38,975 nucleotides of DNA from a virus: the IMG/VR virus record IMGVR_UViG_3300009790_000029, positions 1 to 38,975 of that record; one strand, given 5' to 3'. A program made the position numbers and the translations under genes. The notes beneath the pieces are model-generated. The model saw only the letters and a program-made list of their open reading frames with translations, had not been told where the DNA came from and searched no databases. This document shows positions 5,449 to 35,956 of this stretch, piece after piece (the first letter of the stretch is position 1; every line of letters starts with the position of its first letter).

Positions 5449-5725
5449 GATAGATGATGCGCTTGAAGATAAAGCTGAACATATAAATAAAATTTCTGAA
5501 TGCAACACTGACATAAGGCGATTACAAGGTGAGATAAGAAAGCTTGGAGTGTTGTGCCAAGGTATTAACAGGAGGATCGGAGTGTATCAGGGCAAGATAC
5601 AACAGAAACAAAGTGCAATTAAAAAAGAACGGAAAAGAATTGAACAAAGACTAGAAGATAAGTGGGTAGAGGTGAAGCGGCAGGAGTTTAGGAAATCCTG
5701 CTATGTAAAAAATTTAAATATATGA
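5357..5725 (+). CDS. Coiled-coil hypothetical protein, 122 aa
   Basis: The protein is almost entirely charged helix: heptad-like segments run from about residue 5 to 60 and from 75 to 115, rich in Lys, Glu, Gln and Ile. It has no catalytic motif. It starts inside the HTH gene (92-base overlap) and ends by ATGA overlap with the integrase, so it is expressed together with both. A dimeric adaptor or an integration accessory factor would fit the context but is not shown by the sequence. Confidence 0.6.
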   Translation: MNLPVEDLEKAVAKSKRIEAANIILKVLQGKIDDALEDKAEHINKISECNTDIRRLQGEIRKLGVLCQGINRRIGVYQGKIQQKQSAIKKERKRIEQRLEDKWVEVKRQEFRKSCYVKNLNI

Positions 5726-6792
5726 AACTCAAAAAGAAAAAAGGTGTGTATTATGTATCCTTCAAGACAGAAGAAGGATCCAAAGAGGTAAGCACTCGTT
5801 GTAGTAACAAGGAGGATGCTTTAAGAGTATGTAAGGAGGCAGACATTGAGAAGATGGAGGCTTTAGTTAAAGCTAACTCTCTTCGTGATGATGTGTTCCA
5901 CAAGATGAAGGGTGGTAGAAAGGTTACTAATGAGGATGCACTTGAACAGTACTCTGAATGGTCTGAAACAATTGGTAAATCAGATAGAACCATACAAGAA
6001 ACTGCCATTCATATATCAAAGTTCCTTTCAACCAAGAAGCTTTCAACCAGGAAGCCTAGTGATATTACAGAGAAGTTAATCTCTAATCATATCAATGACC
6101 CTAAGACTGGGAACAAGGCTAACACTAGGAGGATTACCTTGTCTGCAATTACTAGCTTCATTGATTATTGTAATGCTAAAGGCTGGCTTGAAGGTAACCC
6201 TGCCAAGCTGGTTAAGGTTAACATGAAGAAACTTTCTCATGCCCAGAAGGAAGTCACTGAGAAGCAAGTGTTCTCTAAGGATGAATTCAAATGGATGAAC
6301 GCTATGACTGAAGGCTTCTGGAACTTAGCAATACATCTAGCATATGAAACTGGCTTGCGTATTGGTGACATCTGTAGGCTTGAGTGTGATTCACATAACC
6401 CCAGGAAATCCACACTCACTGTATGGACAGAGAAGAGAGACAAGCGTGTCGATCTACCTATTAGTAAGAACCTGAACAGTAAGTTAAACAACTGGAAGGG
6501 TGACGGATCTGAGACAAGAACAAAGTCGTTGTTCTTTCCTCTTAATAAGGAGAAGCATGAAGACCCAAAGAAAAGAAGTTACCATTCAGTTACCTTTAAA
6601 AGATTACTTGAGACACTAGGTATTGAAGGTAAATCATTCCATAGTTTGCGAGCCACCTATGCTACCAATGCTAGTATCAATGGTAAACCTTGGTGGGAAA
6701 TTGCGAAGGACTTGGGTCACACTGATGTGGCTACGACTCAAGTATACATAAAGGATAAGAATAAATATAAGCCTGTTATTAAAGTAGCATGA
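5722..6792 (+). CDS. int: Tyrosine recombinase / phage integrase
   Basis: The 356-residue protein has the full tyrosine-recombinase catalytic set: Arg213 in YETGLRIGD, a probable Lys at 238 or 241 in the TEKRDKRVDLP beta-hairpin, His307 and Arg310 in HSLR, His333 in LGHT, and nucleophile Tyr342 in TQVYIK. An N-terminal core-binding domain spans about 65-165. It would integrate and excise the phage genome at an attachment site. I could not identify attP, and no tRNA gene or tRNA fragment is nearby. The gene is joined by ATGA overlaps to a coiled-coil gene upstream and the probable small terminase downstream. That is an unusual place for an integrase, which normally has its own control. Confidence 0.93.
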   Translation: MKLKKKKGVYYVSFKTEEGSKEVSTRCSNKEDALRVCKEADIEKMEALVKANSLRDDVFHKMKGGRKVTNEDALEQYSEWSETIGKSDRTIQETAIHISKFLSTKKLSTRKPSDITEKLISNHINDPKTGNKANTRRITLSAITSFIDYCNAKGWLEGNPAKLVKVNMKKLSHAQKEVTEKQVFSKDEFKWMNAMTEGFWNLAIHLAYETGLRIGDICRLECDSHNPRKSTLTVWTEKRDKRVDLPISKNLNSKLNNWKGDGSETRTKSLFFPLNKEKHEDPKKRSYHSVTFKRLLETLGIEGKSFHSLRATYATNASINGKPWWEIAKDLGHTDVATTQVYIKDKNKYKPVIKVA

Positions 6793-7508: not shown

Positions 7509-7773
7509 GTGGCTGGACGAGACTACTCACAGTGCGTCGGAAGCATATGGGTTTTGTTGTTACGACACTCAGACTATTGGTATAACAGAGAGATTGGAGA
7601 AGGATCAAATGGCTGATGTTTTTTTGCATGAGATAATTCATGCATTGTATTTTGCGATGGGATTATCTGAAGACAGTGACGAAGAGAGAGTAGCTCACGG
7701 ATTATCTGCTGGGTTATGCACTGTGTTTAAAAGTAACCCAAAGTTTTTTAAATGGTGGAGTGACTTACTTTAA
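7456..7773 (+). CDS. Small HExxH metallopeptidase-like phage protein
   Basis: From ATG 7456 the protein has 105 residues. It contains FLHEIIHAL (His58, Glu59, His62), with Glu76 or Glu77 downstream as a possible third zinc ligand (DEERVAHGLSAGL). It ends with NPKFFKWWSDLL. This compact layout is familiar from small phage proteins encoded close to terminase genes. The function is unknown and proteolysis has not been shown by sequence alone. The ATG at 7435 is also in frame; I prefer 7456 because KALPKRIRVLNLTFKIKW is a typical family beginning. It overlaps the small terminase by 53 bases and the large terminase by 14 bases (from the GTG). Confidence 0.7.
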   Translation: MKALPKRIRVLNLTFKIKWLDETTHSASEAYGFCCYDTQTIGITERLEKDQMADVFLHEIIHALYFAMGLSEDSDEERVAHGLSAGLCTVFKSNPKFFKWWSDLL

Positions 7774-9268
7774 TGAAGAAGACATTGAGGCAATGGCAAG
7801 TTCCACCCTCACAGCTAAAACTCCCGCAAAACCAAAGGGAAGCTGGACACCCGACTTAAACCCAACACAACAAAAGATTTTCGATACCCCTTCTAGATTT
7901 GTACTAGGATACGGAGAAAAAGGTTCAGGTAAAACCATAGGCTTTGGTCATAAAGTTATAAGACATGCTTATGAAAACAATAATGCTTTAGTATTAATTG
8001 TTGCGCCGTCAATCCGCACAGGTTCTGAAGGTATATGGCATGATCTAGATACTTTAATCATCCCAGCATGGGAGCAAGGTATAGGTCTTGAATCAACCAC
8101 TGCAAAGCTGGATCCGAATACCAAGGATAGGCATCGATGGATAAAGAATAGGTTTGGCGGTTGGTCTAAGCTGCTGCTTGTATCGATACCATATGCCGCA
8201 GCAGTAGAGCAAAGGGTCAAAGGCCCAGCTCCTTCGATGGTATATGTAGATGAGATAACTAACTGTGAAGGCAGAGAGTACATGACATATCCGGCGGCAC
8301 AGTTAGGAAGACGGCGCGGGATAACAGGCCCACAACAATTCTGTGCGAGCTGCAACCCTGAAGGGCCGACTCATTGGGTATACAAAGTATTCTTTGAAGA
8401 GTGTTACGACGAGGAGACTGGTGAAAAGGATCAAGACATGGAGGTTTACCATGTGCCTATCACTGAGAACCTTGACCGTTTACCTGATGGTTATGTCGAG
8501 AACTTGCACAGGATTCTACGCAGTGATCCAGTTGAAAAACGTAGGTTGATTGACGGCGAGTGGGTTGACAGGCCAACAGGTGAAGCACTGTTTAAAGATT
8601 ACTTTCAACCAGAAGCACACATACGGGGTAACGCTTTGAGTGGTGACGGACTGGTTCCAGTAAAAGGATATCCTATAATAATTGGGTATGACTTGGGCCA
8701 AGTCTTTAGCTCTGTAACATTCCTTCAACTTGTACCAACAAAGGATAAGCTTGTATGGATGGTGATCGATGAGGCGGATCACTTAGGTGAAAGGATTCTG
8801 TATAAGAGACTGGTTCAAGAGATACTACAGAAGATGGCTAAGTGGAATAGGAGGATGGATTATGAATTTAAATACCAACATATATCTGACTCTAGTAGTA
8901 TTAACCAGTGGCATCCAGGTGGTGAGGGTTCATATGACTCATGGGATATTGAACGGTTCAGTGATGGAAAGATTAAACTTCAAGGATGTCCAAAGGGCAG
9001 CGGAAGCATCGAGGCAAGAGTAAGGATCCTTCAAGGTAAACTATTTCAGGATGAATTCTATGTGTCAGCCGTATGTCAGAACACAATTGATACATTAAAC
9101 AACCTTGAAGGTGATGATAAAACAGGCATGAAACCTAAGAGATCTAAATATATCCATAAGTTTGACAGCATATCATACCCACTTTTAAAGATGGAACTAA
9201 CAGGTGGTAGAAACTACTTGCCACAGGAAAATGTACGGCCACACTTAATACATTGCGGAGTTGACTGA
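7760..9268 (+). CDS. terL: Terminase large subunit
   Basis: This 502-residue packaging motor has a Walker A motif GEKGSGKT (52-59), Walker B VYVDE (161-165) and a coupling motif around CNP (198-200). The C-terminal nuclease begins near IIIGYDLGQ (307-314), with Asp311 as a candidate metal ligand, and has further acids at Asp337 in VIDEAD and Asp377 in HISDSS. It pumps DNA through the portal using ATP and cuts the concatemer. The start is ambiguous: GTG 7760 overlaps the previous gene, while ATG 7793 would remove only 11 residues before the conserved region. Its stop is followed by a short gap with the ACCTTA motif. Confidence 0.95.
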   Translation: MTYFNEEDIEAMASSTLTAKTPAKPKGSWTPDLNPTQQKIFDTPSRFVLGYGEKGSGKTIGFGHKVIRHAYENNNALVLIVAPSIRTGSEGIWHDLDTLIIPAWEQGIGLESTTAKLDPNTKDRHRWIKNRFGGWSKLLLVSIPYAAAVEQRVKGPAPSMVYVDEITNCEGREYMTYPAAQLGRRRGITGPQQFCASCNPEGPTHWVYKVFFEECYDEETGEKDQDMEVYHVPITENLDRLPDGYVENLHRILRSDPVEKRRLIDGEWVDRPTGEALFKDYFQPEAHIRGNALSGDGLVPVKGYPIIIGYDLGQVFSSVTFLQLVPTKDKLVWMVIDEADHLGERILYKRLVQEILQKMAKWNRRMDYEFKYQHISDSSSINQWHPGGEGSYDSWDIERFSDGKIKLQGCPKGSGSIEARVRILQGKLFQDEFYVSAVCQNTIDTLNNLEGDDKTGMKPKRSKYIHKFDSISYPLLKMELTGGRNYLPQENVRPHLIHCGVD

Positions 9269-9295: not shown

Positions 9296-9517
9296 ATGGC
9301 ATTAAATAATATAAACGATAAAGTCATCCTCAACCTAGACGACAATCAAGGCATGGCTGATTACTTCAGCAGCAAGGAACCTGGTGAAGAATGCACAATG
9401 ACTATAACTGGTAGTCTCGATGAGCAGACTGCTGACCAAGCTGTGCTTTCAATAAACAATGTAAGCGTAGAAGGTTACGAGGGTGCTAAAAAAAACGGGA
9501 AGACGATGTTCCTGTGA
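9296..9517 (+). CDS. Small acidic virion-module protein, 73 aa (with possible -1 frameshifted longer form)
   Basis: This short acidic protein contains ECTMTITGSLDEQTADQAVLSI, which looks like a small beta-strand domain. Proteins like this between terminase and portal are common in related phages, but the role is unknown. The start has an AAGGA ribosome-binding site. Near the end, codons AAA AAA AAC form a run of eight A followed by C. A -1 slip on A AAA AAC would replace the last six residues with a 23-residue tail beginning REDDVPV and ending KAGDSY, stopping at 9567. An indel in the A run of the assembly would have the same effect. Confidence 0.65.
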   Translation: MALNNINDKVILNLDDNQGMADYFSSKEPGEECTMTITGSLDEQTADQAVLSINNVSVEGYEGAKKNGKTMFL

Positions 9518-9866
9518 TGATGATCATGGCAGGAAAGGCAAAGAAAAAAGCAGGAGATTCGTATTAAATGGAATCAAAAACCCTAGAGCTTACAGAGCCT
9601 ATAGGCACTGGAGGGAACTTGGCATCCTTGATGGGTGGTCAAGTGATAGGGTTTCAAGGTGCTGCCGATTCATTAACTTCACGCTAGAAGAGCTGGCCGC
9701 TACATGTTGTATACCATACTGGCAACTCACAAGGTGGATGAAGAACGGAAGAGTACCAAGCCATGTGGCATTGTTATTTCATTTCCAAGAAGAAGCAGTT
9801 TTAGAAGCAAAGTATTCAGACTATGATAGACTTCGACATCCTCAAAGAGGCAGGCACAACCAATGA
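9483..9866 (+). CDS. HTH-like basic phage protein, 127 aa
   Basis: The C-terminal two thirds look like a real fold: RAYRAYRHWRELGILDGWSS, then VSRCCRFINFTLEELAATC and IPYWQLTRWMKNGRVPSHVA. Together these resemble a helix-turn-helix unit with a following recognition helix (about residues 68-105). The N-terminus is very basic (KKTGRRC, RKGKEKSRR). No ATG precedes the conserved part. The only standard start is GTG 9483, which has AGAAGG at 9469-9474, eight bases upstream, a good site. The gene overlaps the previous one by 35 bases and the portal by 44 bases. Proteins with this layout occur between terL and portal in other phages; the role is unknown. Confidence 0.6.
   Translation: MLKKTGRRCSCDDDHGRKGKEKSRRFVLNGIKNPRAYRAYRHWRELGILDGWSSDRVSRCCRFINFTLEELAATCCIPYWQLTRWMKNGRVPSHVALLFHFQEEAVLEAKYSDYDRLRHPQRGRHNQ
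9488..9567 (+). other. Candidate programmed -1 frameshift site and extension
   Basis: The run at 9488-9496 is AAAAAAAAC. In the frame of the upstream gene it reads AAA AAA AAC, so the heptamer A AAA AAC is in the correct register for tandem slippage. The -1 frame is open for 23 codons from 9496 to the TAA at 9565-9567. Bases 9496-9501 can pair with 9509-9514 (one G-U) to form a six-pair hairpin directly downstream. Its spacing to the slip site is shorter than usual for stimulators. An independent 16-codon ORF from ATG 9517 (TGATG overlap) would give only the tail. Confidence 0.45.
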
Positions 9867-12117
9867 AAGGTTGAGAGAAATGTTCACAGCAAAGCTTCCT
9901 CCGAAGCCAAAGCTGGATGAACTACCTGAAGAAGAGCGTAAACAGATAGAGAAAGATGTAGAGAACAGGGAGAAGATCGAGGACATGATCAGTTCCCGTG
10001 TGTCTGAGCATATAATCTGGTCGCTAAAGAATCACCACCTCTACTCATCTGTGGATCTCGCATGGGATTCAACACCTATTACTAGGCAGATAGTTCCATT
10101 GGTTCTGTATGCACAGAAGAGAATTAATATGCAGTCTTGTGTTAAGGAGTTGGGCAAACTCAAGAACACTGATCAGTATGTTAAGAAGGATGCAAAAGGA
10201 AAACCTGTTGGTATTAATTTACCTAAGTTCTTTGAGGTAAACATTAATTTAATTAGGTCTTTTGTTACTAGAAGACTAGCTGCACAGAGTAATCGGTTTA
10301 ATAATCTGTATCCATTCTTTAAGTATGAACCTAGAACCACTGAGCCAGCAGGAAAATTAAGAGCAGATGTATTGAGTCAGCGAGTTGATGTGATGGCAGA
10401 CCAGTATAACTACCGTCACTTTCAAACTCAGTTAATCAGGGATATGTTTCTTTACGGTCATAGTGTGGCCTTTCCAAGGGCAGCATGGGAACGTGATGTG
10501 CATTGGGAGCAGACACCAGTGGCAGAAGAGTATGCGCCTGAAGGCACGATGACTAAGAAGCGCACTAAGATAGTAAGAGAAGGTGTTAGCTGGGTCGCAC
10601 CTCATCCTACTCGAACCTTCTATGATTTTAATTATCCACTAGCCAGCCTTAATACTGACACTGGCTGTGAGTATGTAGGATTCTGGGATATAGGTAGGTT
10701 TGGTGACATAGTTGAGAATCCAAATTACTTTAACAGGGAAGAGGTTGGTTTCAGCACTGGGCAGATTGGTTTGTTCAGTAAATATTCCTCATACTTTAAT
10801 CAATACTACACAACAATAACACCACCGCAAATCGATGATGATGTTACATCATTCAACGACAGGAAGAATCAGGTTGGTTACTATAGTGGAGAAGAGAAGG
10901 ATACATCTGTATTTATAACTGAATACTTTGTTAAAATTATACCAAGGGATTATGGCATTGGCACATATCCTTATCCTGTTTGGGTACACCTTAAAGTTGC
11001 AGGGGAATTTACTGTGGTATACGCAGAGATTCTGCCAAGTTCGCCAGCTTCAGTCTTCTCGTTTAATGAGAATGATTCAAGGCTCCTGAATATATCAGTG
11101 GCACATGAGTTAATGCCCTTCCAAGATCAGCTTACCAACCTGTTCTCACAATTACTTGAGACAGCAAAGGCGGATCTATTTTCTGTGGCAATTATTAACT
11201 CTGATCTTTGGCCTGATAACGACGAGGGTCACAAAGCCTTGGAGGATTTCCGTAATACTATGAAGGGTGAGAACTTCTATGCTACTACCCATGCTTTAGA
11301 TGCAAGCTTTAGTAAGCTTCAAGATCTAGGCATAGATCCTAGTGCTGATAATGTATTTAAGATTGTTAGGAGCCAGCCTAATGGGAACTTAACAAACATA
11401 TTTAATTCCATCACCCAGCTTTTAACTATGGCTGAGAGATTGATGGCACTATCACCACAAGAACAAGGTCAACCAGCACCTAGAGAGATATCAGCAACAG
11501 AGGTTCTTTCTATAAGCAACACAACTGATAGTGTTTATACGTTTATATCTGATGCAATTGATGAAGGCAGGGCATCAATGAAGCGTGTCCTTTATGAATC
11601 ATTAATGTCATGTGGTAGTAACTCAATACACTTGCCAGTACTTGGTCGGTATACCCGTAACATTATTGAACGGGCTGGGTTTGAAGTAGAGATGGCTGAT
11701 GGTGATCTTATGGATCCAAACCTTGAGCGAAGATATACTGTTATAGGCAGTAAAAGAAAACTGTTGCATGATTACATATTCACAAGTCGTGATGGCAGTG
11801 AGAGATCAAGTAACTCACAAGCTGCTAATGTGTTGGTGCAATTAATACAAGTGCTTAACCAACCACAAGTATTGGGTGCAATTGGTAAAGAGAAATACTT
11901 TGAGATTATCAATGAGATATTCCGCCTGAGTGGTGCGGGTATAGATTTAAAACTGGAGCTATCACCTGGTGATAACGATGACATGACTGCGCCTGATGAT
12001 AAGACGCAAGCTGTGATACAGCAAATAGGTCAGGCAGTACAAAAGAACAGTCAAGATATCCAGAGCATTGTGCAGGCAATTCAAGGCCCACCGCAACAGG
12101 CCCAGCCAGCACAGTAA
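9823..12117 (+). CDS. Portal protein
   Basis: This large, mostly helical 764-residue protein lies between terminase and scaffold, the standard place for a portal. Recognisable features are LIRSFVTRRLAAQ (143-155), a wing region with many aromatic residues, a long stem-like helical section (AHELMPFQDQLTNLFSQLLETAKADLF, about 427-453) and a Gln-rich C-terminal helix (QAVIQQIGQAVQKNSQDIQSIV), typical of the barrel or crown end. Portals form 12-subunit rings at one vertex, admit DNA pumped by TerL and dock the tail. The length is close to the large portals of N4-like podoviruses, but I cannot claim a family. The ATG at 9823 overlaps the preceding HTH gene by 44 bases. Confidence 0.85.
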   Translation: MIDFDILKEAGTTNERLREMFTAKLPPKPKLDELPEEERKQIEKDVENREKIEDMISSRVSEHIIWSLKNHHLYSSVDLAWDSTPITRQIVPLVLYAQKRINMQSCVKELGKLKNTDQYVKKDAKGKPVGINLPKFFEVNINLIRSFVTRRLAAQSNRFNNLYPFFKYEPRTTEPAGKLRADVLSQRVDVMADQYNYRHFQTQLIRDMFLYGHSVAFPRAAWERDVHWEQTPVAEEYAPEGTMTKKRTKIVREGVSWVAPHPTRTFYDFNYPLASLNTDTGCEYVGFWDIGRFGDIVENPNYFNREEVGFSTGQIGLFSKYSSYFNQYYTTITPPQIDDDVTSFNDRKNQVGYYSGEEKDTSVFITEYFVKIIPRDYGIGTYPYPVWVHLKVAGEFTVVYAEILPSSPASVFSFNENDSRLLNISVAHELMPFQDQLTNLFSQLLETAKADLFSVAIINSDLWPDNDEGHKALEDFRNTMKGENFYATTHALDASFSKLQDLGIDPSADNVFKIVRSQPNGNLTNIFNSITQLLTMAERLMALSPQEQGQPAPREISATEVLSISNTTDSVYTFISDAIDEGRASMKRVLYESLMSCGSNSIHLPVLGRYTRNIIERAGFEVEMADGDLMDPNLERRYTVIGSKRKLLHDYIFTSRDGSERSSNSQAANVLVQLIQVLNQPQVLGAIGKEKYFEIINEIFRLSGAGIDLKLELSPGDNDDMTAPDDKTQAVIQQIGQAVQKNSQDIQSIVQAIQGPPQQAQPAQ

Positions 12118-25898: not shown

Positions 25899-27524
25899 AT
25901 GGCTACGGAACAAGAAGTATTTGAAAATACAAGAAACGCAGTAATGCAGGCGGCTGGACCTTTGTTGGGTTCAATGAAAGATCGTGCGGCTTTTCAAGCT
26001 GAAGAAATAAAGCGAAGGCAAAACCTTCTCGATGACCAACGTAAAAGAGATCAAGCAAGAGCTGATTGGATTGAACGCTTTAACATGCAGACCAACGCTG
26101 CAAAAGCAGCGGCAAAAGAATTAAGAGATTTTACTACGTCAGAACGTAAAGATCGTCAAAACTTTCAAGCTGCCGAATCAGATTGGCAATTTTTTAGAGC
26201 CAGACAAGTTCAACTTCAAGACAGGGGTTGGACTACCCAGCAAGACGAGAAGGATATGAGGCTCAAGGCTGTTCAGTTTGGGATGGCTAATGCAATGGAA
26301 GCATCTATTGAGGATGTTTATAAGCACATATACAAAACAGCACCTGAAGAAATTGAGAGAATGAAAAGAAAGCAATCAGATGCTTTCAAGAAAATAAACC
26401 CAGAAGCATATGCTGCTTACGATGAAGCTATTAATGAGCGAGCAAATATTCTAAGTCAGATGAATACTTTGATTACTGCTAATGCTGGAGGGCCGAGTGA
26501 ACAAAGAATAGTAGAAGCACTTCTTAGAAAATTAGGCCCGAAATGGGCTTTGAATAGTGAAGATATTGCAAAATTCAAGCAGGAAGGAATTCCTGGTATT
26601 TCAGCGTGGCTTGCAAAAGATGAAAACGAAAAACTTCGTCTAGAATTTGACCAAGCACTTGATGATGTTACGGAACAATTAACTACAAGAGATGATAGAA
26701 TATACCGTGATAAGTTAGCGAGGTTATTGAAGTTAGAAAAAATTTCTCAAGAAACTATTAATAGAGTTAGGCAAATGGATCCTTCAATTTTTATTAGCAA
26801 AAAAGATGAGACTGAAGAGTTAATAAATAAGGTTAAGAATAATCAGGGCAACGAAACTCTTGGCGGTGGAGAAAACAAATTCGGATTACCTCCTGTTAAC
26901 AACAACATAAATGCTGTTCTTAACACTGAAACTCCTGTTGTAGATACACCCGCTGTTACACCTACTGTTACACCTACTGTTACACCTACTGTTACTGATG
27001 ATGAAGAAACAGGAGGAACAGAAAGTTTTGATTTTTCAAATACTGCTGGTGCTTTAATGCCTACCCAAACCAGTGCTGATAAAACAATTAATCTTGATAG
27101 CTTTGGGCCAGTACCGAAAACCTCTGATAAGCTGTATCAAGAGAAAGAAACTTTGGAGGGTAATTTAATGCGTCAGGACAAACTGTTAGGAAGCATGAAA
27201 GGAAAAGGTGGGGATATCAGTAGGGTAAGGGATGCTGTGTTAAGAAATCAGGCTAGGCTCAAACAAATTGATGAAGCTATTTTTAAATTAAATAATCCAA
27301 AGCCAGTTGGCCCAACAATGCGACCAGATGAATATATTAATGAAGGTCAGGTTTTAAGAGGCATGGGGTATGGTAACCCTAATAGAAGTTTATCAAGCTT
27401 TGAGGAAATCTATAAACAAAATCAAGGTGATGCATTTATAGATCCTAGAACTTTAGGCCCAGAAGAACGCCGGATGCTTGAAGCAACTGGCAATAGACAG
27501 CCTCGAAGATTTTCTTGGGAATAA
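25899..27524 (+). CDS. Probable internal virion protein, 541 aa
   Basis: The first 290 residues are nearly all charged helix (AAFQAEEIKRRQNLLDDQRKR, AAAKELRDFTTSERKDRQNFQ), consistent with long coiled coils. A Pro/Thr/Val linker (about 350-370) made of TPTV repeats separates them from a C-terminal half with further helices (QEKETLEGNLMRQDKLLGSM). A DPRTLGPEERRMLEATG segment lies near the end. It lies directly upstream of the giant protein, overlapping it by TAATG. The ribosome-binding site is AAAGGGAAG. A role in DNA ejection or as a partner of the giant protein is inferred from position. Confidence 0.63.
   Translation: MATEQEVFENTRNAVMQAAGPLLGSMKDRAAFQAEEIKRRQNLLDDQRKRDQARADWIERFNMQTNAAKAAAKELRDFTTSERKDRQNFQAAESDWQFFRARQVQLQDRGWTTQQDEKDMRLKAVQFGMANAMEASIEDVYKHIYKTAPEEIERMKRKQSDAFKKINPEAYAAYDEAINERANILSQMNTLITANAGGPSEQRIVEALLRKLGPKWALNSEDIAKFKQEGIPGISAWLAKDENEKLRLEFDQALDDVTEQLTTRDDRIYRDKLARLLKLEKISQETINRVRQMDPSIFISKKDETEELINKVKNNQGNETLGGGENKFGLPPVNNNINAVLNTETPVVDTPAVTPTVTPTVTPTVTDDEETGGTESFDFSNTAGALMPTQTSADKTINLDSFGPVPKTSDKLYQEKETLEGNLMRQDKLLGSMKGKGGDISRVRDAVLRNQARLKQIDEAIFKLNNPKPVGPTMRPDEYINEGQVLRGMGYGNPNRSLSSFEEIYKQNQGDAFIDPRTLGPEERRMLEATGNRQPRRFSWE
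26946..26993 (+). repeat. 12-base tandem repeat, four units
   Basis: The unit ACACCTACTGTT occurs three times exactly (26958-26993), preceded by one diverged copy ACACCCGCTGTT. In frame it encodes TPTV repeats forming a flexible linker. Repeat number may vary between related phages by slippage without breaking the frame. Confidence 0.9.
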
Positions 27525-30500
27525 TGCCAAATCAATTAGTAGATTATTATCGTCAACAGCACCCTGATGATGACATCAGTGATCAAAGAATCATTGGTGG
27601 GTTTATTAAGGAGCATGGTGAAAAGAAGATTAAACAACAGTACCCTGATGCTTACGATCAATTCACAAAGCAACGCCGTAAGAATGATATAGATCGATAT
27701 AATAGATTTAATAAATCAGATGTAATTGGTGAAGGTGTAAAAGCTATTAAGCGTTCTTCAATAGGAATGCTTTCAACTGCTACTGGCGCGGCTGGGTTAG
27801 GTGCTGGATTGATTGGGTGGGAAGGTGCGAGAGATTACTTCCTTACAAAGTCGATGGGTCTTGGAGATGCAGCGTCTGATATATCATTAGCAGCAGCCGA
27901 AGGTGACTGGGAAGATGTCGATGGATTTTATGAAGGTTTATTGTACGGATCATCTGTCTTTGGCGAAGCCGCCCCATCTCTTGTCGAGTCTATTGGTGTT
28001 GCCACTGTTGGTGGCTTGGTGGGTTCTAGTGCCGCTCCTGGTCCTGGTACTGCTACTGGTTTCGTGGGTGGTTTCTTTGCCAAGAATGCTGTTAAGAAAC
28101 TTCTTAAAGAAGAAGTAAAAGATCAGGTTAAATCTAGTGTCGCTCTCCAAATGGGAGTTAAGAAGGCTTTACTTACTGACAGTAAATTAAAAGATGTTTT
28201 ATTAAAGACAGCTACCACTGGTAAAGGACCAGGTAGTGATATGCTTAAAGCTCAAATGAAGGCAACGGGCTTTAAATATGGTTCAACAATAGCAACTACT
28301 CTTAACAGTTACGGCCTTTCATCAGGTGAAATTTACAACTCACTAGCAAGTAATCCTAACGTCGATCCTGATGATGCAATAAACATTGCACTAACAGGTG
28401 GATTAGTTGCAGCTCTTCCTGACACATTCCTACCGTCATACATCATGGGTAAATCAGGAATCGTTGATGCGTTGACTGGAACTGTTAAAGGCAAGATGGC
28501 TAAAGATCATGTTAAGCGACGCTTTAATGGTTATGTAGCAAGACTTGCGAAAAGTGCGGCGATAACAATCCCTGCTGAAGGTGCGACTGAAGGATTTCAA
28601 GAACTAGTAAATATTGCTGCTGAAAAATACGGAGATAAAACCACTGATTATTATAAAGACACGGGTTCATGGTTTGCTCCTATGCAATATTATGAAGACC
28701 TGACAGAAGACGAGAAGGGTCGAATTGATAGGGCAATGGTGGTTGGCATGGCTGCTGGTACTTTAGGTGCTGGTGGTGCTGCCGCTCGTGCCGCTGCAAG
28801 AACTGAAGCTGACACCGAGAAGTCAAAGCCAGAAGTAACAGCTACCCCTGCTGTGGATGTTCTAGATGAAGTATATTCTCCAACGGAAGAACAGCAAGCG
28901 GAGATCATTGGGTTAATACAACGCGAACTTGCTGGTGATGTTGAAGCTACAAACGAACTTCATCTCTCTGGTTATCTAGCAAATAGAATCACCTCAAAAT
29001 TTTATAGAGAAGAAAGAAAGAAAGCTTTAGAGGAACAAGGCTTTCGTATTAACAAGAAGAAAGCAGATGATAAGGAGGTTGCTGTAGATCAAGACTATGT
29101 TGATTTCCTTACGGCACAAATAGAAAAAGTTAAAGCTGCTGAGTTAACACCGAAAATTAAAGATTACCTTTTAGCTCAATTAAATCAAAAAATTAAAGCA
29201 GCTAAGAAAGGAGAACAACCTGACAGTGCAACATCTTTATCAATGGCTGGCGAGGAGGTTGAGGTTCAATCAACATTAGATGAACAACTTGGATTGATTG
29301 ATATTGAACCTGAAGCAGAAGTTGTAGATGAAAATCGGGAAGTCGTTGGGCTTCTCCCTGAATCAACAGGTGCTGAAGCAATTCGTAACCAAGAAAGAGA
29401 TGCTAGGTGGCAGCGTGAAGATAACGCTAAAGAGGCTGAAGATTTAAAAGCTAAGAAAACTGAAGATGAAAAGAAACTAGCCAAATTAAATGAACGATTA
29501 GCAAAGGCTAGAGAAGCTTCGGTTAAGAAAGAAGGTGTACGGAGAGGAGCCGAGCAATCACTTGCCGCTAAATGGAAGGCTCAACAGGATGTTAACAGGG
29601 CAACTGAGCAGGCTGTAAAGAACCTTCAAAGGAAGGAGGCACAAAAGGAAGCAAGGGAAAGAAAAGCTGCTGATAAAATTGCAGCTACAATGGATGCAGA
29701 TTCACAGCCAAAAGCAGAAAAGAAAAAAACTAAGGCGAAAACAAAGAAACCGAAAGAGGTACTAAACCCAAGTCACTTAGAAGATAAAGAAATAAGTTCA
29801 AGTGATGGTCGCCTTAAAGATTCAAACATTGCCATAAAAACCGCAGGTTCTCAAAATTGGATTAATATTCCTATAGATAATGCGAAGGAAATAGTTGAAG
29901 GCAAAAAATTTGACACACTTGGTGAGCTGTTAACATTTCGATCATCAAAAAAAATAGATGGTAAAGGCGCATCAAAGAGTGATTCAAAAAGACTTACTGC
30001 ATTATTAGATCCTGACACTGGAGAAGTTTGGGTTGTTAAAACTTGGAAAGATAAAGGAAGTGTTTGGTTCGCTGGTCCTGACGGGAGTAGAGCCAGAATA
30101 GATACAGCACTGACTACTGCTGGTCGTATTCCAATAGCTAGTATTTTAATTAAGAATGATGCTAATGTTAAGGACTACAATACATATAGTAGTCGAAATG
30201 ATTTTGAATCTTCATTTGCTGAACAGATAGGAAACGCAAAACAAGATGAACGTAATGAATCAGCTAGTGATGTAGAGACTAGACAGCGTCCAGTTCAACC
30301 TGTGACTAGTAAAGAGGAAGCTCAGAATCTTTCCACTGATAAAAAAACCAAAGCTTTATTTGATACCATTGTCCGTATGGCTGTGGCTAGGGGTTTGAAT
30401 ATAGAAATATTTCAAAACGAAACAGCCAAGATGGAAGGTGAGTATGGAGTTTATGCTAACGCCTACAAGATGATAAGGCTGGCCCTTGCTGATGCAGCTA

Positions 30501-33500
30501 AACCAAGTAGCGAAACTATCAGGCTTTTATTACATGAGGTTGCTCATGCTGTGTTCGCTAATGAGGCTGTTGCTGTTCGCGAATCAATACATCGTGCAAT
30601 AAAAAACATGAGTGATAAAGCTCTTCAACTTGAAGGGTTTACTTTAGCTGTGCCTGAAGGAGTTGCAGCGGCAGAGGTTATTCAAGAGGAGCGACTTGCT
30701 GAGACGACATCAATCAATTTACAACAAGAAGGTTTTAATCCTACTGAAGCTCAAAAGATTTCTCAGAAATTTGTTAGGTTCTTTAAAGATATTTATTATA
30801 GAGCAGCTATGGGTATCCAACGCGCAACAGGATTAAACATAGCAAACGACAATCTTCCTCTTCGGTTTTTCCAAAATCGCATGAGGATGTTTCTTGCTGG
30901 CGACCCAGATGTGCTTAGTTATTTAAGTTTCATGGGTGGGCCTAAACCAAACATACAAGAGACTGTTGCCGGATCCTTAAAGGTTTATGATTCATCTGTA
31001 GATATAGATATTAATTTCAGGAACATGACCGTTGGTCATCCTGAAGTTGTGCCGGACAATAAACTTGCTGCAACATTAGGGATTCGTCTTAGACCTAGTC
31101 CAAGTCGCCGTAAGGATGCGCCTGAACCAATTGTTCAAGAGGGTGAAGATTACGATTCGGTTCAGATGAGTCGTGGAAATATTTACACTCTTAAATTAAT
31201 CGATGATGCGTACCGCAAAATGTATGAAGCATGGCGGGTAAGCGGATCCGAAGCCATGACTTACGAGCAATGGTTGGCTAGTGATTTAATGGGGCAAGAA
31301 GATCCGGCTGCGCTTATTGCTGAGATTAATATAAACCTTGCAGCTAATGGGCATGAACAAATAAATCCAGAGGAAGTAACAAGTTCTGTTCTTGATCAGA
31401 GAAAACAATTACCTCTAGCAAAAGAAGCAGCTTACAAAAAAATTACAAGTGTTCGTGCTAAGTTACAGAAGAACTTTAATGACAGCCAAGAGAACCTGGA
31501 TCCAACAAAGAACAGATCTCTAGCATACAAGATAAACAAAGCAAAAGAGAAGATTGTTGCTGTTGTACAAAAATATACTGATGCTGATATTGCACGGACA
31601 ATACTGCAAACAAACATGGTTAACGCAGTTAAGGAGCTTAACGATGATATACGGCAGATAGCTAACGCATCTCGAAAGAAAGGTGAGCTTTATCAAATCA
31701 TTAAACAGCTTGAAGGAAAAACCCCAGATGCAAAAGCACTAGCTCAAGTAGAGAAAAAATTATTAAAACTTGTAAGGGAATCAAAAGATGGAAAAGGAAA
31801 CTTCTTTGATATGCTTGAGGCTGCTGCTCAATTGTTGCAAGACCGAAGCGATGACAAATCAAGGTGGGAGACTTTAACGTCACCTGAAATTGCAGCTTTA
31901 ATTGAATCATCTGGGATTGAAGCATTACAACCACTCGTTAAAGACCGTCAAATGTTAGCAGCAATTATCGCTGTTGCTAAAAAGGATTCTCTTATAATGG
32001 ATTTACTATCTATTAGGAGGGATGACGAAAGGGGTAAAGTTGATTCTTTATTAAATGAGGTGTTAGCGAAAGGAAGAGCAGATGAGTCAACAATTAGAAA
32101 TGCTGCAAGGCGTCTTCCAAGACTTGAAAGAATAGCTAACAGGTTGCTTTTAACATTAAACGAAAAGCAATCTCAACTTGCTAAAGATGAGAGGCAACTA
32201 CAGAAGCAAGCTGATCGTGCATTGTTTTGGGATTCAGTAGCAGAGGTGGTCGATGATCAGATGGCGATAATCGAGAATGACTTGGGTATCGAAACTGCTG
32301 ATAAGAATGTTCAAGCATTTGCTTTGTACGACGGAGCTAAAATTCCTATTCCAGCAAACGAGAATACTACAATCACAGAATTGAAAGACCCTAAAAGTCT
32401 AAAGGAAGTTTCTCTTAAAGCCGGTCAAGCTAGTCAGGATACTGTTAGAAAGTATTACTATAAAATTAAAACATGGCTAATAGCTAATGAGGATAAACCA
32501 AGGTCTGCAACCTATAGGCAGATGGAACGTATTGCCGATGAGTTAGCAATTGCAGGATCTAACCTTTTGGAGAAAGGTGTTAAAAGAGTTGTTGGTCAAA
32601 AGATCATGGATAGTTTTTCCAAATCTTTATTCTCTTTAGACTCAGGCATTGCTCGCTTTTTAGGTTCAAAGATAGAGAGGTTTCAGGATGAGTGGCAAAG
32701 AATGGAAAGTGAAGCTGATGTTCTAGGATCCAAATGGACAATAGCTGAAAAGGATTTAATGAATGAGTTAATGAAGGGTAAACTATTCAAGATTGATGAC
32801 AGAGAAGCCTTTCGGATTAATTGGTATCAAGCAGCTTTACAGTTCTTTGAGAAACGACCTGACCTGTTAGCTTTTAGTAAAGAGACTGATAAGATAAGAA
32901 AAAATGCTTACGCAAAATATTTAGCTAAACTTTCAGAATCAGAGTCTATTGCTAAAAACCCTAAAGTTAAAGAGCTGTTCTCGAAGTATATGGATGCAAC
33001 TGCAAATTCTTCAGGGTGGTTTGATAAACAAGGCAAACGACTTGGAGTAAGATTATCTGATAAACAAGGTGGTTATCTTCGCGAATCAATTGGTGAACCT
33101 ATATTTACAGTAATGCGGCGCATGTCTGGTCAAGCAGCTTTGGTGTACGAGAACATGAGAAGTAAATGGTCTGAGGTTAAATCAGATGAACCATTTGATG
33201 ATTCTAGAAAACTGTTTGATCAAACAATTTGGAGAGATTTTGTTAAGCCAATTGTGCATAGGGAAGGCAGGACAATGCTTGGTTCTGTTCCGCGAGGTGA
33301 TGGTATAGAAAGACTGGCTAGGCGATCTAATATTTTATCAGCATACGAAGCTATGGAAAAGGAAGGGCCAGAGGTCGATGGTTACTATTCTATTCAGAAA
33401 TTTGCTGAAATACTTTATTCATTAGAACAAGGGGATCCAACTGACATGGATGCTAGGCAGCAATTTATTGAGCAAACATTTGGATCTTTTAATGATGTGT

Positions 33501-35956
33501 TCCAACTATTGCATTCTCAAAAACAAGAGTTAGCCCAAACAAATAACGACGGCGACATGGGTGTTCCAATGAGAACATTAATGGATACCCGAAAAGCTGA
33601 AGAACTTCCTGCTGAATTCATGGAGCATGTAACATTTGACTCTAGAACAATGAGGCAAATGGCGAAGGTAATGGCAATGGAATCTCAGTATGGCCGGAAC
33701 ATGTCAAACATGAAAAAAGGATTCACTCAGTTACTTGAAGATTTACAAAACAAAAAAAGAAAATACGAAGCAATTTCAGATGAAGTTAACAGGAAGCACT
33801 CGACACTAAGCCGTGGAAAAAGAATTAAAATTATTAAAAAAGAAGTTGAAGCTGCTGGTGAAAATTACATCGTATTATCTCAAGCTGATGACAATCTTAA
33901 ATATGCACAAAATCTTGAGAGTAGTTGGTTAGCTTATTCTTCCGCTGAAGGTCATGTGTCTACAGAAAACAGGATGGCTCAAGAAGTGGCAGGCACAATG
34001 GCAGGAGCCACAGTTCAAGGTTACAGTACTTTGGTTCTCGATTTATCTGCGCCTTTAATACAAGGGCAAACTAAAATGACAGGAATTGGGGGAACAAAGT
34101 TTGCACTTGGTATATACAAGAAAGCATTCGGTGAAGTGTTGGGTAGCTTTTGGCAAATGTTTGGTAAAACTCTTGATCTGAAGGCTGACAATGCTAGGCG
34201 AAGAGCTAGAAACGGATACATCTTTGCTGACGCCCACATACGTTTGCAGGATTCTTTTAGGTCTGCGTTAAACGAGGTTAATGAAAACGATTCATTACTT
34301 GTTAAACAAGGTGACACAACAGGACAAGTATTCCTTAAAAGAACAAAGAGAATTGCCCTTAATTTTAGCAGGATTTTAAGAACACTAATCGGATCTGGTG
34401 TTGGTAAGTCTAAGAAAGGAATGGATGAAGCTGCTTTTTCAACTGTTAAACCTCAAGCCCCTTACACTTGGGGTTCAGAAATAATTCATGCGGCTGCTGT
34501 TGATAATTATGTAGAGAAGTTTGAAAGCTTATTATCAAGAGCAGTTGAGTACTTACAGAATCCAGTTAACCAACCAGACCTTAATGATCCAACATTTTCT
34601 TTTAATACAAAAGATCACGGAAAAGATTTAGGTTTTGGTAAAAGATTGTTTCTGTTCGATAGTGATCAAGATTTAAACTATTTCTTAAATGCTCTAAATG
34701 AAAAAGGGCTATCACTGGAGCAGTTGGCTAAAGAATATATTGAACGTGCTGCTTCAGATCCAGAGGCAACACTTATTACTGATAACAATTTTCACCATCT
34801 TGCTTCACTTGCTAATAAAGATATCATGTTAGCAAACAACGTAACCACTCAGTCAAAATTTTTAATCAGCGGTAAAATAGCACCTGTTTTACAAAACCTT
34901 ATAGGTTGGTCTATTCGTAGGACTGGTGATTTGTTTAGGATGTTTAGAAACCCTGATGGGTCACGGGATTTTAAACAGTTCACAAAAGCTTTAATGCGAT
35001 TCTCTTTTGTTACAGTTCCAACATCTTTAGGTTGGGCAGTACTAAGGGATTACTGGGATGAAGAGATATACGGTAAGCAGGCAAATGTTTTGAAATTTAG
35101 ACAAGCACAGGATACTGGAGATGTATTAATGACAATCCTTGATAGAACCGCAAGGGTTGGTGTTGCTGGTATTGGAGGTGACATGGCTAATTCATTTCTT
35201 AATGTTCAGACTGGTAGGGATTTTAGTTTGGATTCCCGTATATACATTGTGAATTCATTGTTCTCATTATCCGGTGCTTTAGCTACAGCAGGACAACAGG
35301 GAGGTGCTAACTATGAGACTGTATACAGAAGAATAATTCAGAGCCTTGGTGGATCTGGATTCTTGCAGAACTTTGTTACTTACAAAAACTTCTTAGAAAC
35401 AGTCAGTGGAGCTGATCTGGAAACCCAAGAAGATCGAATAGTTGCACGAATCAATATTGAAAACATTTTACGAGGTGCTGGTAGGTCGTTGAAAGGGATG
35501 GATATGAGGACAACAAGCTACAGTGGAAAGTTTTTATCCAACCCAATACGTCCACATATTAAAGATATGGTTACAGCAGCTTACGCAAATGATGCAGCCG
35601 ACTTTCAAAAGGCATATAGGCAGGCTTTGATGGCAGCAAGGGAAGAGGGTAAAGCGGATCCGGTTGACTCCATAGCTAGAAGTTTTGGGGCTTACAATCC
35701 ACTGAAGAAGGTATTTAAAACTGACCCCTCTGAGGCTGAATACGCACAGCTAATACAGAACATGGATCTAGATGCTGGAAGGACTGTGAGGGAGGGGTTG
35801 AATCTGTTTAATCGGTACGGCGATCAGATAGGAACCAAGCCATTCTTTGGAAAGGTGGAGAAAACAAAGAAGAAAAAATATGTTGATCCTTTTAACCAGA
35901 AATTACCGACATTAAACGACTATAGGCTCAACGCCCTAAACTCTAATTTACGTTGA
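27524..35956 (+). CDS. Giant internal virion / ejection protein with zinc-metallopeptidase signature, about 2,810 aa
   Basis: The ATG at 27524 shares a base with the previous stop; a TTG nine bases upstream is also in frame. In order: a short N-terminal domain (1-50); Gly/Ala-rich hydrophobic stretches around 78-105, 152-189 and 404-426 that could enter membranes; a Lys/Glu-rich coiled coil (about 620-745); and a globular part (about 755-900). A gluzincin-like site follows, with LLLHEVAHAV (His1004, Glu1005, His1008) and EERLAE (1055-1060). Then come about 1,300 residues of mostly helix, and a C-terminal part (about 2440-2810) with SLGWAVLRDYW and GGSGFLQNF segments that I recognise from giant proteins of other podovirus-like phages. 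It probably leaves the capsid with the DNA and forms or opens a channel through the envelope. Substrate of the peptidase is unknown. It takes up over a fifth of the window. Confidence 0.82.
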   Translation: MPNQLVDYYRQQHPDDDISDQRIIGGFIKEHGEKKIKQQYPDAYDQFTKQRRKNDIDRYNRFNKSDVIGEGVKAIKRSSIGMLSTATGAAGLGAGLIGWEGARDYFLTKSMGLGDAASDISLAAAEGDWEDVDGFYEGLLYGSSVFGEAAPSLVESIGVATVGGLVGSSAAPGPGTATGFVGGFFAKNAVKKLLKEEVKDQVKSSVALQMGVKKALLTDSKLKDVLLKTATTGKGPGSDMLKAQMKATGFKYGSTIATTLNSYGLSSGEIYNSLASNPNVDPDDAINIALTGGLVAALPDTFLPSYIMGKSGIVDALTGTVKGKMAKDHVKRRFNGYVARLAKSAAITIPAEGATEGFQELVNIAAEKYGDKTTDYYKDTGSWFAPMQYYEDLTEDEKGRIDRAMVVGMAAGTLGAGGAAARAAARTEADTEKSKPEVTATPAVDVLDEVYSPTEEQQAEIIGLIQRELAGDVEATNELHLSGYLANRITSKFYREERKKALEEQGFRINKKKADDKEVAVDQDYVDFLTAQIEKVKAAELTPKIKDYLLAQLNQKIKAAKKGEQPDSATSLSMAGEEVEVQSTLDEQLGLIDIEPEAEVVDENREVVGLLPESTGAEAIRNQERDARWQREDNAKEAEDLKAKKTEDEKKLAKLNERLAKAREASVKKEGVRRGAEQSLAAKWKAQQDVNRATEQAVKNLQRKEAQKEARERKAADKIAATMDADSQPKAEKKKTKAKTKKPKEVLNPSHLEDKEISSSDGRLKDSNIAIKTAGSQNWINIPIDNAKEIVEGKKFDTLGELLTFRSSKKIDGKGASKSDSKRLTALLDPDTGEVWVVKTWKDKGSVWFAGPDGSRARIDTALTTAGRIPIASILIKNDANVKDYNTYSSRNDFESSFAEQIGNAKQDERNESASDVETRQRPVQPVTSKEEAQNLSTDKKTKALFDTIVRMAVARGLNIEIFQNETAKMEGEYGVYANAYKMIRLALADAAKPSSETIRLLLHEVAHAVFANEAVAVRESIHRAIKNMSDKALQLEGFTLAVPEGVAAAEVIQEERLAETTSINLQQEGFNPTEAQKISQKFVRFFKDIYYRAAMGIQRATGLNIANDNLPLRFFQNRMRMFLAGDPDVLSYLSFMGGPKPNIQETVAGSLKVYDSSVDIDINFRNMTVGHPEVVPDNKLAATLGIRLRPSPSRRKDAPEPIVQEGEDYDSVQMSRGNIYTLKLIDDAYRKMYEAWRVSGSEAMTYEQWLASDLMGQEDPAALIAEININLAANGHEQINPEEVTSSVLDQRKQLPLAKEAAYKKITSVRAKLQKNFNDSQENLDPTKNRSLAYKINKAKEKIVAVVQKYTDADIARTILQTNMVNAVKELNDDIRQIANASRKKGELYQIIKQLEGKTPDAKALAQVEKKLLKLVRESKDGKGNFFDMLEAAAQLLQDRSDDKSRWETLTSPEIAALIESSGIEALQPLVKDRQMLAAIIAVAKKDSLIMDLLSIRRDDERGKVDSLLNEVLAKGRADESTIRNAARRLPRLERIANRLLLTLNEKQSQLAKDERQLQKQADRALFWDSVAEVVDDQMAIIENDLGIETADKNVQAFALYDGAKIPIPANENTTITELKDPKSLKEVSLKAGQASQDTVRKYYYKIKTWLIANEDKPRSATYRQMERIADELAIAGSNLLEKGVKRVVGQKIMDSFSKSLFSLDSGIARFLGSKIERFQDEWQRMESEADVLGSKWTIAEKDLMNELMKGKLFKIDDREAFRINWYQAALQFFEKRPDLLAFSKETDKIRKNAYAKYLAKLSESESIAKNPKVKELFSKYMDATANSSGWFDKQGKRLGVRLSDKQGGYLRESIGEPIFTVMRRMSGQAALVYENMRSKWSEVKSDEPFDDSRKLFDQTIWRDFVKPIVHREGRTMLGSVPRGDGIERLARRSNILSAYEAMEKEGPEVDGYYSIQKFAEILYSLEQGDPTDMDARQQFIEQTFGSFNDVFQLLHSQKQELAQTNNDGDMGVPMRTLMDTRKAEELPAEFMEHVTFDSRTMRQMAKVMAMESQYGRNMSNMKKGFTQLLEDLQNKKRKYEAISDEVNRKHSTLSRGKRIKIIKKEVEAAGENYIVLSQADDNLKYAQNLESSWLAYSSAEGHVSTENRMAQEVAGTMAGATVQGYSTLVLDLSAPLIQGQTKMTGIGGTKFALGIYKKAFGEVLGSFWQMFGKTLDLKADNARRRARNGYIFADAHIRLQDSFRSALNEVNENDSLLVKQGDTTGQVFLKRTKRIALNFSRILRTLIGSGVGKSKKGMDEAAFSTVKPQAPYTWGSEIIHAAAVDNYVEKFESLLSRAVEYLQNPVNQPDLNDPTFSFNTKDHGKDLGFGKRLFLFDSDQDLNYFLNALNEKGLSLEQLAKEYIERAASDPEATLITDNNFHHLASLANKDIMLANNVTTQSKFLISGKIAPVLQNLIGWSIRRTGDLFRMFRNPDGSRDFKQFTKALMRFSFVTVPTSLGWAVLRDYWDEEIYGKQANVLKFRQAQDTGDVLMTILDRTARVGVAGIGGDMANSFLNVQTGRDFSLDSRIYIVNSLFSLSGALATAGQQGGANYETVYRRIIQSLGGSGFLQNFVTYKNFLETVSGADLETQEDRIVARINIENILRGAGRSLKGMDMRTTSYSGKFLSNPIRPHIKDMVTAAYANDAADFQKAYRQALMAAREEGKADPVDSIARSFGAYNPLKKVFKTDPSEAEYAQLIQNMDLDAGRTVREGLNLFNRYGDQIGTKPFFGKVEKTKKKKYVDPFNQKLPTLNDYRLNALNSNLR

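Follow-up and report, generated by a model that had tools for sequence, protein, structure and literature searches.

A conserved A-run between terL and the presumed portal gene as a probable −1 recoding site in two clades of uncultivated phages

Uncultivated phages related to IMG/VR virus record IMGVR_UViG_3300009790_000029, of which the whole 38,975-nucleotide stretch was analysed and is referred to here as the window, appear to carry between terL and the portal gene a pair of overlapping genes: gene A, encoding about 90 amino acids, and gene B, encoding a putative helix–turn–helix (HTH) protein. A heptamer, A AAA AAC or A AAA AAG, located within gene A is probably a conserved −1 recoding site in two phage clades, as suggested by its preservation in the aligned contigs. 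Most ribosomes, in the lineage of the window as in a sister clade, would read gene A to its own stop, and a fraction of them would slip back one base on the heptamer, within codons 65–73, and enter gene B, giving rise to a fusion product that comprises the folded core of A, a linker rich in lysine and arginine, and the HTH domain. Such a fusion would be a minor, DNA-bound form of A, tethering the function of this protein to DNA for packaging or for the regulation of head genes. We infer the occurrence, the rate and the ribosomal nature of the slippage. Taken as a whole, the proposal that a −1 slip on the conserved A-run makes the A–linker–HTH fusion, and that the reading frames of the window have been displaced by a missing base, is considered highly likely.

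In the window, the codons AAA AAA AAC (9488–9496) place the heptamer A AAA AAC in register with the frame of gene A. An earlier, sequence-only reading had pointed out this heptamer, together with an open −1 tail of 23 codons closing at 9567, and both are indeed present: the −1 frame entered from the heptamer remains open for 23 codons, ends in GKAKKKAGDSY and is closed by a TAA at 9565–9567. Among the 11,225 codons of the larger open reading frames (ORFs) of the window there are only four in-frame heptamers A AAA AAN, which makes the motif rare. That reading missed a 127-codon ORF in the third frame (9483–9866), which is the real partner gene of the heptamer, designated here as gene B. The features to which the text refers are the following.

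7760–9268, plus strand: gene for the terminase large subunit (terL), the upstream neighbour; matches phrog_2 (1.7e-24), with PF04466 and PF03237 above the cut-off
9296–9517, plus strand: gene A of the window, its start frame comprising 73 codons; truncated against the 90-amino-acid protein of relatives
9483–9866, plus strand: ORF of gene B, with the conserved HTH-encoding region from about 9570
9490–9496, plus strand: slippery heptamer A AAA AAC, inside the eight-A run at 9488–9495
9496–9567, plus strand: the −1 tail of the earlier reading, an ordinary gene A C-terminus that is out of frame in this contig only
9497–9498, plus strand: site of the missing base, one base fewer than in all six closest relatives by DNA alignment; position accurate to within about one base
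9509–9535, plus strand: candidate stimulatory hairpin, pairing 9509–9515 with 9529–9535 and, in its inner part, 9517–9520 with 9524–9527
9823–12117, plus strand: presumed portal gene, the downstream neighbour, named by position and size, with no family match; overlaps the end of gene B

A search of IMG/VR with the N-terminal 65 residues of gene A as the query retrieved seven loci, and more were obtained in later searches; clade II, whose terL is 70–75% identical to that of the window, was found by a terL search with a broad alignment. The slip-bearing set comprises 18 IMG/VR contigs, six in clade I and 12 in clade II (L114–L125), all of which combine A AAA AAC/G in the frame of gene A with gene B in the −1 frame (18/18), the heptamer being A AAA AAG in each of the 12 clade II contigs. 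The A-run is eight residues long except in L119, L121 and L122, where it has nine and the heptamer is still in register. The B frame is open from the A-run in all 18 contigs, and none of them (0/18) contains an ATG, GTG or TTG between the A-run and the conserved start of B, which corresponds to the NPRAYRAYR region in clade I and to the LGSP segment in clade II. A −1 stop lies right at the A-run in 15 contigs, the frame being open for some codons further upstream in L119, L121 and L122; in clade I the −1 frame starts with a TAA at the A-run and passes the stop of gene A into gene B. In these relatives gene B has about 100 codons and is conserved at the protein level. Since they reach the B frame from the A-run, without ATG, GTG or TTG before the conserved sequence, gene B probably does not start at the GTG at 9483. 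A GTG or TTG does occur a few codons inside the LGSP segment in seven clade II contigs (L116–L119, L121, L122 and L125).

The C-terminal tail of A is unrelated between clades I and II, and the A-run is kept in both. Synonymous variation was assessed in clade II over 11 distinct sequences and 64 usable codon columns, with a mean pairwise synonymous difference of 0.47. Five of the 64 columns display no synonymous variation, and three of these are the consecutive AAA AAA AAG codons; the hypergeometric probability of finding the three slip codons among the invariant columns is 2.4e-4, a value that ignores relatedness. From codon usage in a single lineage, an eight-A run has a probability of 0.10–0.21; for such a run combined with an open −1 frame the figure is 0.6–3%. 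On the terL tree (54 rows) the slip label is accounted for by a single change, the union of clades I and II having a support of 69/81. Synonymous suppression across the whole A/B overlap is weak in clade I.

Most of clade I displays a hairpin downstream of the heptamer. The pairing of 9496–9501 with 9509–9514 envisaged in the earlier reading is possible, but a stronger hairpin takes the same 9509–9515 strand. The z-scores for folding of the 90-nucleotide region are −2.7 for the window, −2.7 for L002, −2.3 for L010 and −0.5 for L003. Downstream hairpins with z-scores of −2.8 to −3.3 are found in L110 and L113, which have A AAA AAC, and a weaker one in L112, which has A AAA AAG; in clade II, where all contigs have A AAA AAG, no unusual downstream structure was found (z-scores of −0.9 to +1.5). 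Covariation of the hairpin in clade I is not above that of shuffles and not significant, and a Shine–Dalgarno-like motif upstream is not universal among the slip-bearing contigs. In bacteria (E. coli), A_AAA_AAG is among the most shift-prone heptamers and A_AAA_AAC is weaker (PMC5009743; PMC4066793). The presence of a hairpin with AAC and its absence with the AAG of clade II fit the higher slipperiness of AAG, as a correlation over few lineages.

The same fusion could be produced by slippage of RNA polymerase on the run of eight or nine A residues, yielding transcripts with one extra A. The length of the run and the lack of obvious ribosomal stimulators in clade II are compatible with such an origin, and slippage is reported at an insertion-sequence frameshift site (PMC6211511). 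On the other hand, polymerase slippage would not need ribosomal register, and A AAA AAG/C is always found in that register. Eight A residues are, moreover, a short run for strong transcriptional slippage. The constant register of the heptamer leads us to favour a ribosomal shift over a transcriptional one, which we regard as an unlikely source of the fusion.

The identity of the −1 tail becomes apparent upon comparison with the six closest relatives (L002–L005, L010 and L011), in which gene A is a single 90-codon ORF that includes the KAGDSY-type end. A C-terminus of the type PVMMIMAGKAKKKAGDSY is read in the gene-start frame in all six, the tail of L013 being likewise in that frame, and the gene A product of L002 is MALNNINDKVILNLDDNEGLAGYFSSKEPGEECTMTITGSLDEQTSDQAVLSINKVSVEGYEDGKKNEEDGVPVMMIMAGKAKQKPGDSY. 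The alignment of homologues that had been suggested as a check on frame fusion thus reveals the two frames of the window joined as one 90-amino-acid ORF. DNA alignment shows the window to be one base shorter than these six relatives directly 3′ of the A-run. Comparison by tblastn of the ORFs of three related contigs with the window located a frame switch at 9490–9496 and identified gene A as the sole frame break among the 29 window ORFs (10,877 residues) with relatives at 55% identity or more; the contig therefore looks accurate apart from this break. Since close relatives read the tail in the gene-start frame, it is the normal end of gene A, and it lies out of frame in the window because this contig is without one base after the A-run. 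The missing base places the end of gene A in the −1 frame and gene B in the third frame.

The missing base reflects either a deletion peculiar to this contig or an error of sequencing. An exact-match scan of the flanking sequence detected no near-identical contig that would confirm it, the nearest terL being 92% identical. Were the deletion real, the slip site would now rescue full-length A, and the tail would, for this genome alone, be a genuine −1 product. Such a role would agree with the otherwise unbroken frames of the 29 ORFs and with the in-register heptamer, which would restore A; against it, the difference is found in one contig only and adjoins a homopolymer, confirmation by a near-identical contig is lacking, and access to gene B would then require a shift of +1 or −2. 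We consider this reading doubtful.

A different view of gene B is offered by two sister groups (groups 2 and 3), which have A and B without the A-run. In group 2 a TTG overlaps the stop of A (TATTGAG), and in group 3, which is devoid of ATG, GTG or TTG, an ATT, ATC or ATA is located at a constant position near the stop of A, seven codons upstream of the Phe conserved in the FLL segment. Gene B in these lineages seems to start at TTG or at AUU, AUC or AUA near the stop of A. The frame relation between A and B varies in group 3, and a −1 shift therefore cannot be a general device there; since B of the sister lineages is not made by a −1 shift, the family as a whole does not depend on the fusion. 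Some distant relatives (L026, L092, L095 and L099) have an ordinary ATG for gene B.

The lysine run could accordingly be incidental also in the slip-bearing contigs, with B translated from a near-cognate start codon of its own or through reinitiation close to the stop of A. Besides the apparent starts of groups 2 and 3, the ATC or ATT found near the stop of A in the window, L010 and L003, all in clade I, would speak for this alternative; L002, however, has GTT at that position, clade II is without a canonical start before the LGSP segment and its slip codons are without synonymous variation, and the B frame is open from the A-run in every slip-bearing contig. An independent start is thus judged improbable. 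A start of B at the ATG right after the stop of A, followed by a slip, was also considered and rejected, the AAAAA at that place not being conserved (L010 and L003 differ).

The idea of the earlier reading that a programmed shift evolved to extend a shorter protein by the basic KAGDSY tail, for which the window does present the heptamer, the open −1 tail and a hairpin, is contradicted by every close relative, where the tail is read in the gene-start frame, and by the C-terminus of most of the A family, which is PVM-VM...SY, and we consider it most improbable. What stands of the frameshift proposed between terL and portal is therefore the conserved and very probably functional recoding site, and not the tail as its product. 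The label of a short-tailed phage is likewise unproven: no family of portal, capsid or tail proteins that would show it was recognized.

Returning to the A–B fusion by a −1 ribosomal shift, structural prediction provides a view of its parts. The AlphaFold model of gene B from a relative has five helices (pLDDT of 94) and is closest to HTH proteins of the XRE/Cro, Aca1, Aca2 and Aca10 types, with middling scores (Z up to 7.5). The family phrog_4779, annotated as transcriptional regulator, is matched by 13 of 25 B members (best E of 1e-4), and Pfam HTH_3 scored below the cut-off against gene B. Gene B is thus predicted to encode a Cro/XRE-like helix–turn–helix protein able to bind DNA; assignment to an Aca family was not made, the Z-score of the fold match being below 8. 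In the AlphaFold model of gene A, a helix and a two-stranded hairpin make up the folded part, approximately residues 14 to 60, and confidence is low beyond; no family was recognized by sequence, and the fold search gave no convincing match. The shift, at codons 65–73, lies just beyond the core of A, in its predicted disordered part, and would therefore keep this core, drop the tail, and add the basic linker and the HTH domain. No DNA match to sequenced phages was found, and at the protein level there was no match to gene A or to the presumed portal and a single weak match to gene B. Relatives of gene B were not found in bacterial genomes; with terL, two MAG contigs were obtained.

Several known systems resemble the gene pair in part. 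The frameshift of E. coli dnaX shortens its product, whereas the A/B shift would extend into a second gene, with the upstream Shine–Dalgarno motif and downstream hairpin only partly seen here. The heptamer of dnaX, A AAA AAG, is the same (PMC5009743). In IS911 and other orfA/orfB elements of the IS3 family, as here, a shift on A AAA AAG into an overlapping −1 ORF gives a fusion; titles cited in PMC4066793 also indicate AUU initiation in IS911, which resembles the apparent starts of the sister lineages. IS911, with both −1 shift and AUU initiation, may be viewed as a close mechanistic parallel. In contrast to IS911, the shift and the weak start are found here in different lineages, and were not seen together in one; unlike the IS3-family pair, A/B is no transposase, carries its HTH in the downstream part and is located in a phage head/packaging block. 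In the tail assembly chaperone G/GT of lambda-like phages, too, a −1 shift close to the end of a small gene fuses it to an overlapping ORF (PMC5009743), but A/B lies between terL and the presumed portal gene instead of beside the tape measure gene and its extension is a predicted HTH; no sequence relation of A/B to G/GT was found. Gene 10 of T7/T3 and the capsid gene of Lactobacillus phage A2 likewise yield a minor frameshift-extended form of a virion-region protein (PMC5009743), although A is no capsid protein and its extension is predicted to bind DNA and is not an Ig-like domain. In the literature, no published frameshift case was found for such a pair or between terL and portal.

With the proposed site, the few frameshifted genes of phages would be joined by a pair whose extension is predicted to bind DNA. 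Automated annotation would miss gene B or misplace its start. More generally, the HTH partner may rarely use AUG, its output being kept low by the −1 frameshift in some lineages and by weak AUU, AUC, AUA or UUG starts at the stop of A in others, interchangeable recoding devices that would keep a low ratio of a DNA-tethered minor form of a packaging-region protein; we put this forward tentatively, at somewhat less than even likelihood. Frameshift, UUG and AUU/AUC/AUA form a natural series for gene B that allows testing whether evolution keeps the protein ratio or the decoding trick.

Other junctions deviate from these arrangements. L030, L032, L033, L035, L036, L038, L040 and L045 have neither an A-run nor an ATG, GTG or TTG before the B domain, and carry an ATT, ATC or ATA near the stop of A at a fixed distance from the domain, which suggests conserved AUU-type starts for gene B in this set. 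L086 and L175 are also without an A-run and a canonical B start, with ATT, ATC or ATA near the stop of A; the two genes of L175 (MAG contig JAERSQ010000200.1; from position 1426) share one frame, with the stop of A between them, and ATT is the only start available to B. In L157, A ends in VGKKKKGGAY and B is in the −1 frame without a canonical start, making it a further shift candidate outside clades I and II. Gene A of L018 (3004–3189) is interrupted by an in-frame TAA following codon 62, with the usual C-terminus continuing in the same frame beyond it. L058 and L062 have about 330 extra bases between terL and A, each with a different small lysine-rich ORF, which are absent from the window, L002 and L010. 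Elsewhere in the window, 27515–35956 is a single ORF of 2813 amino acids with no PHROG match, and an integrase is encoded at 5722–6792 (phrog_1, 1.1e-39), from which the phage may be temperate.
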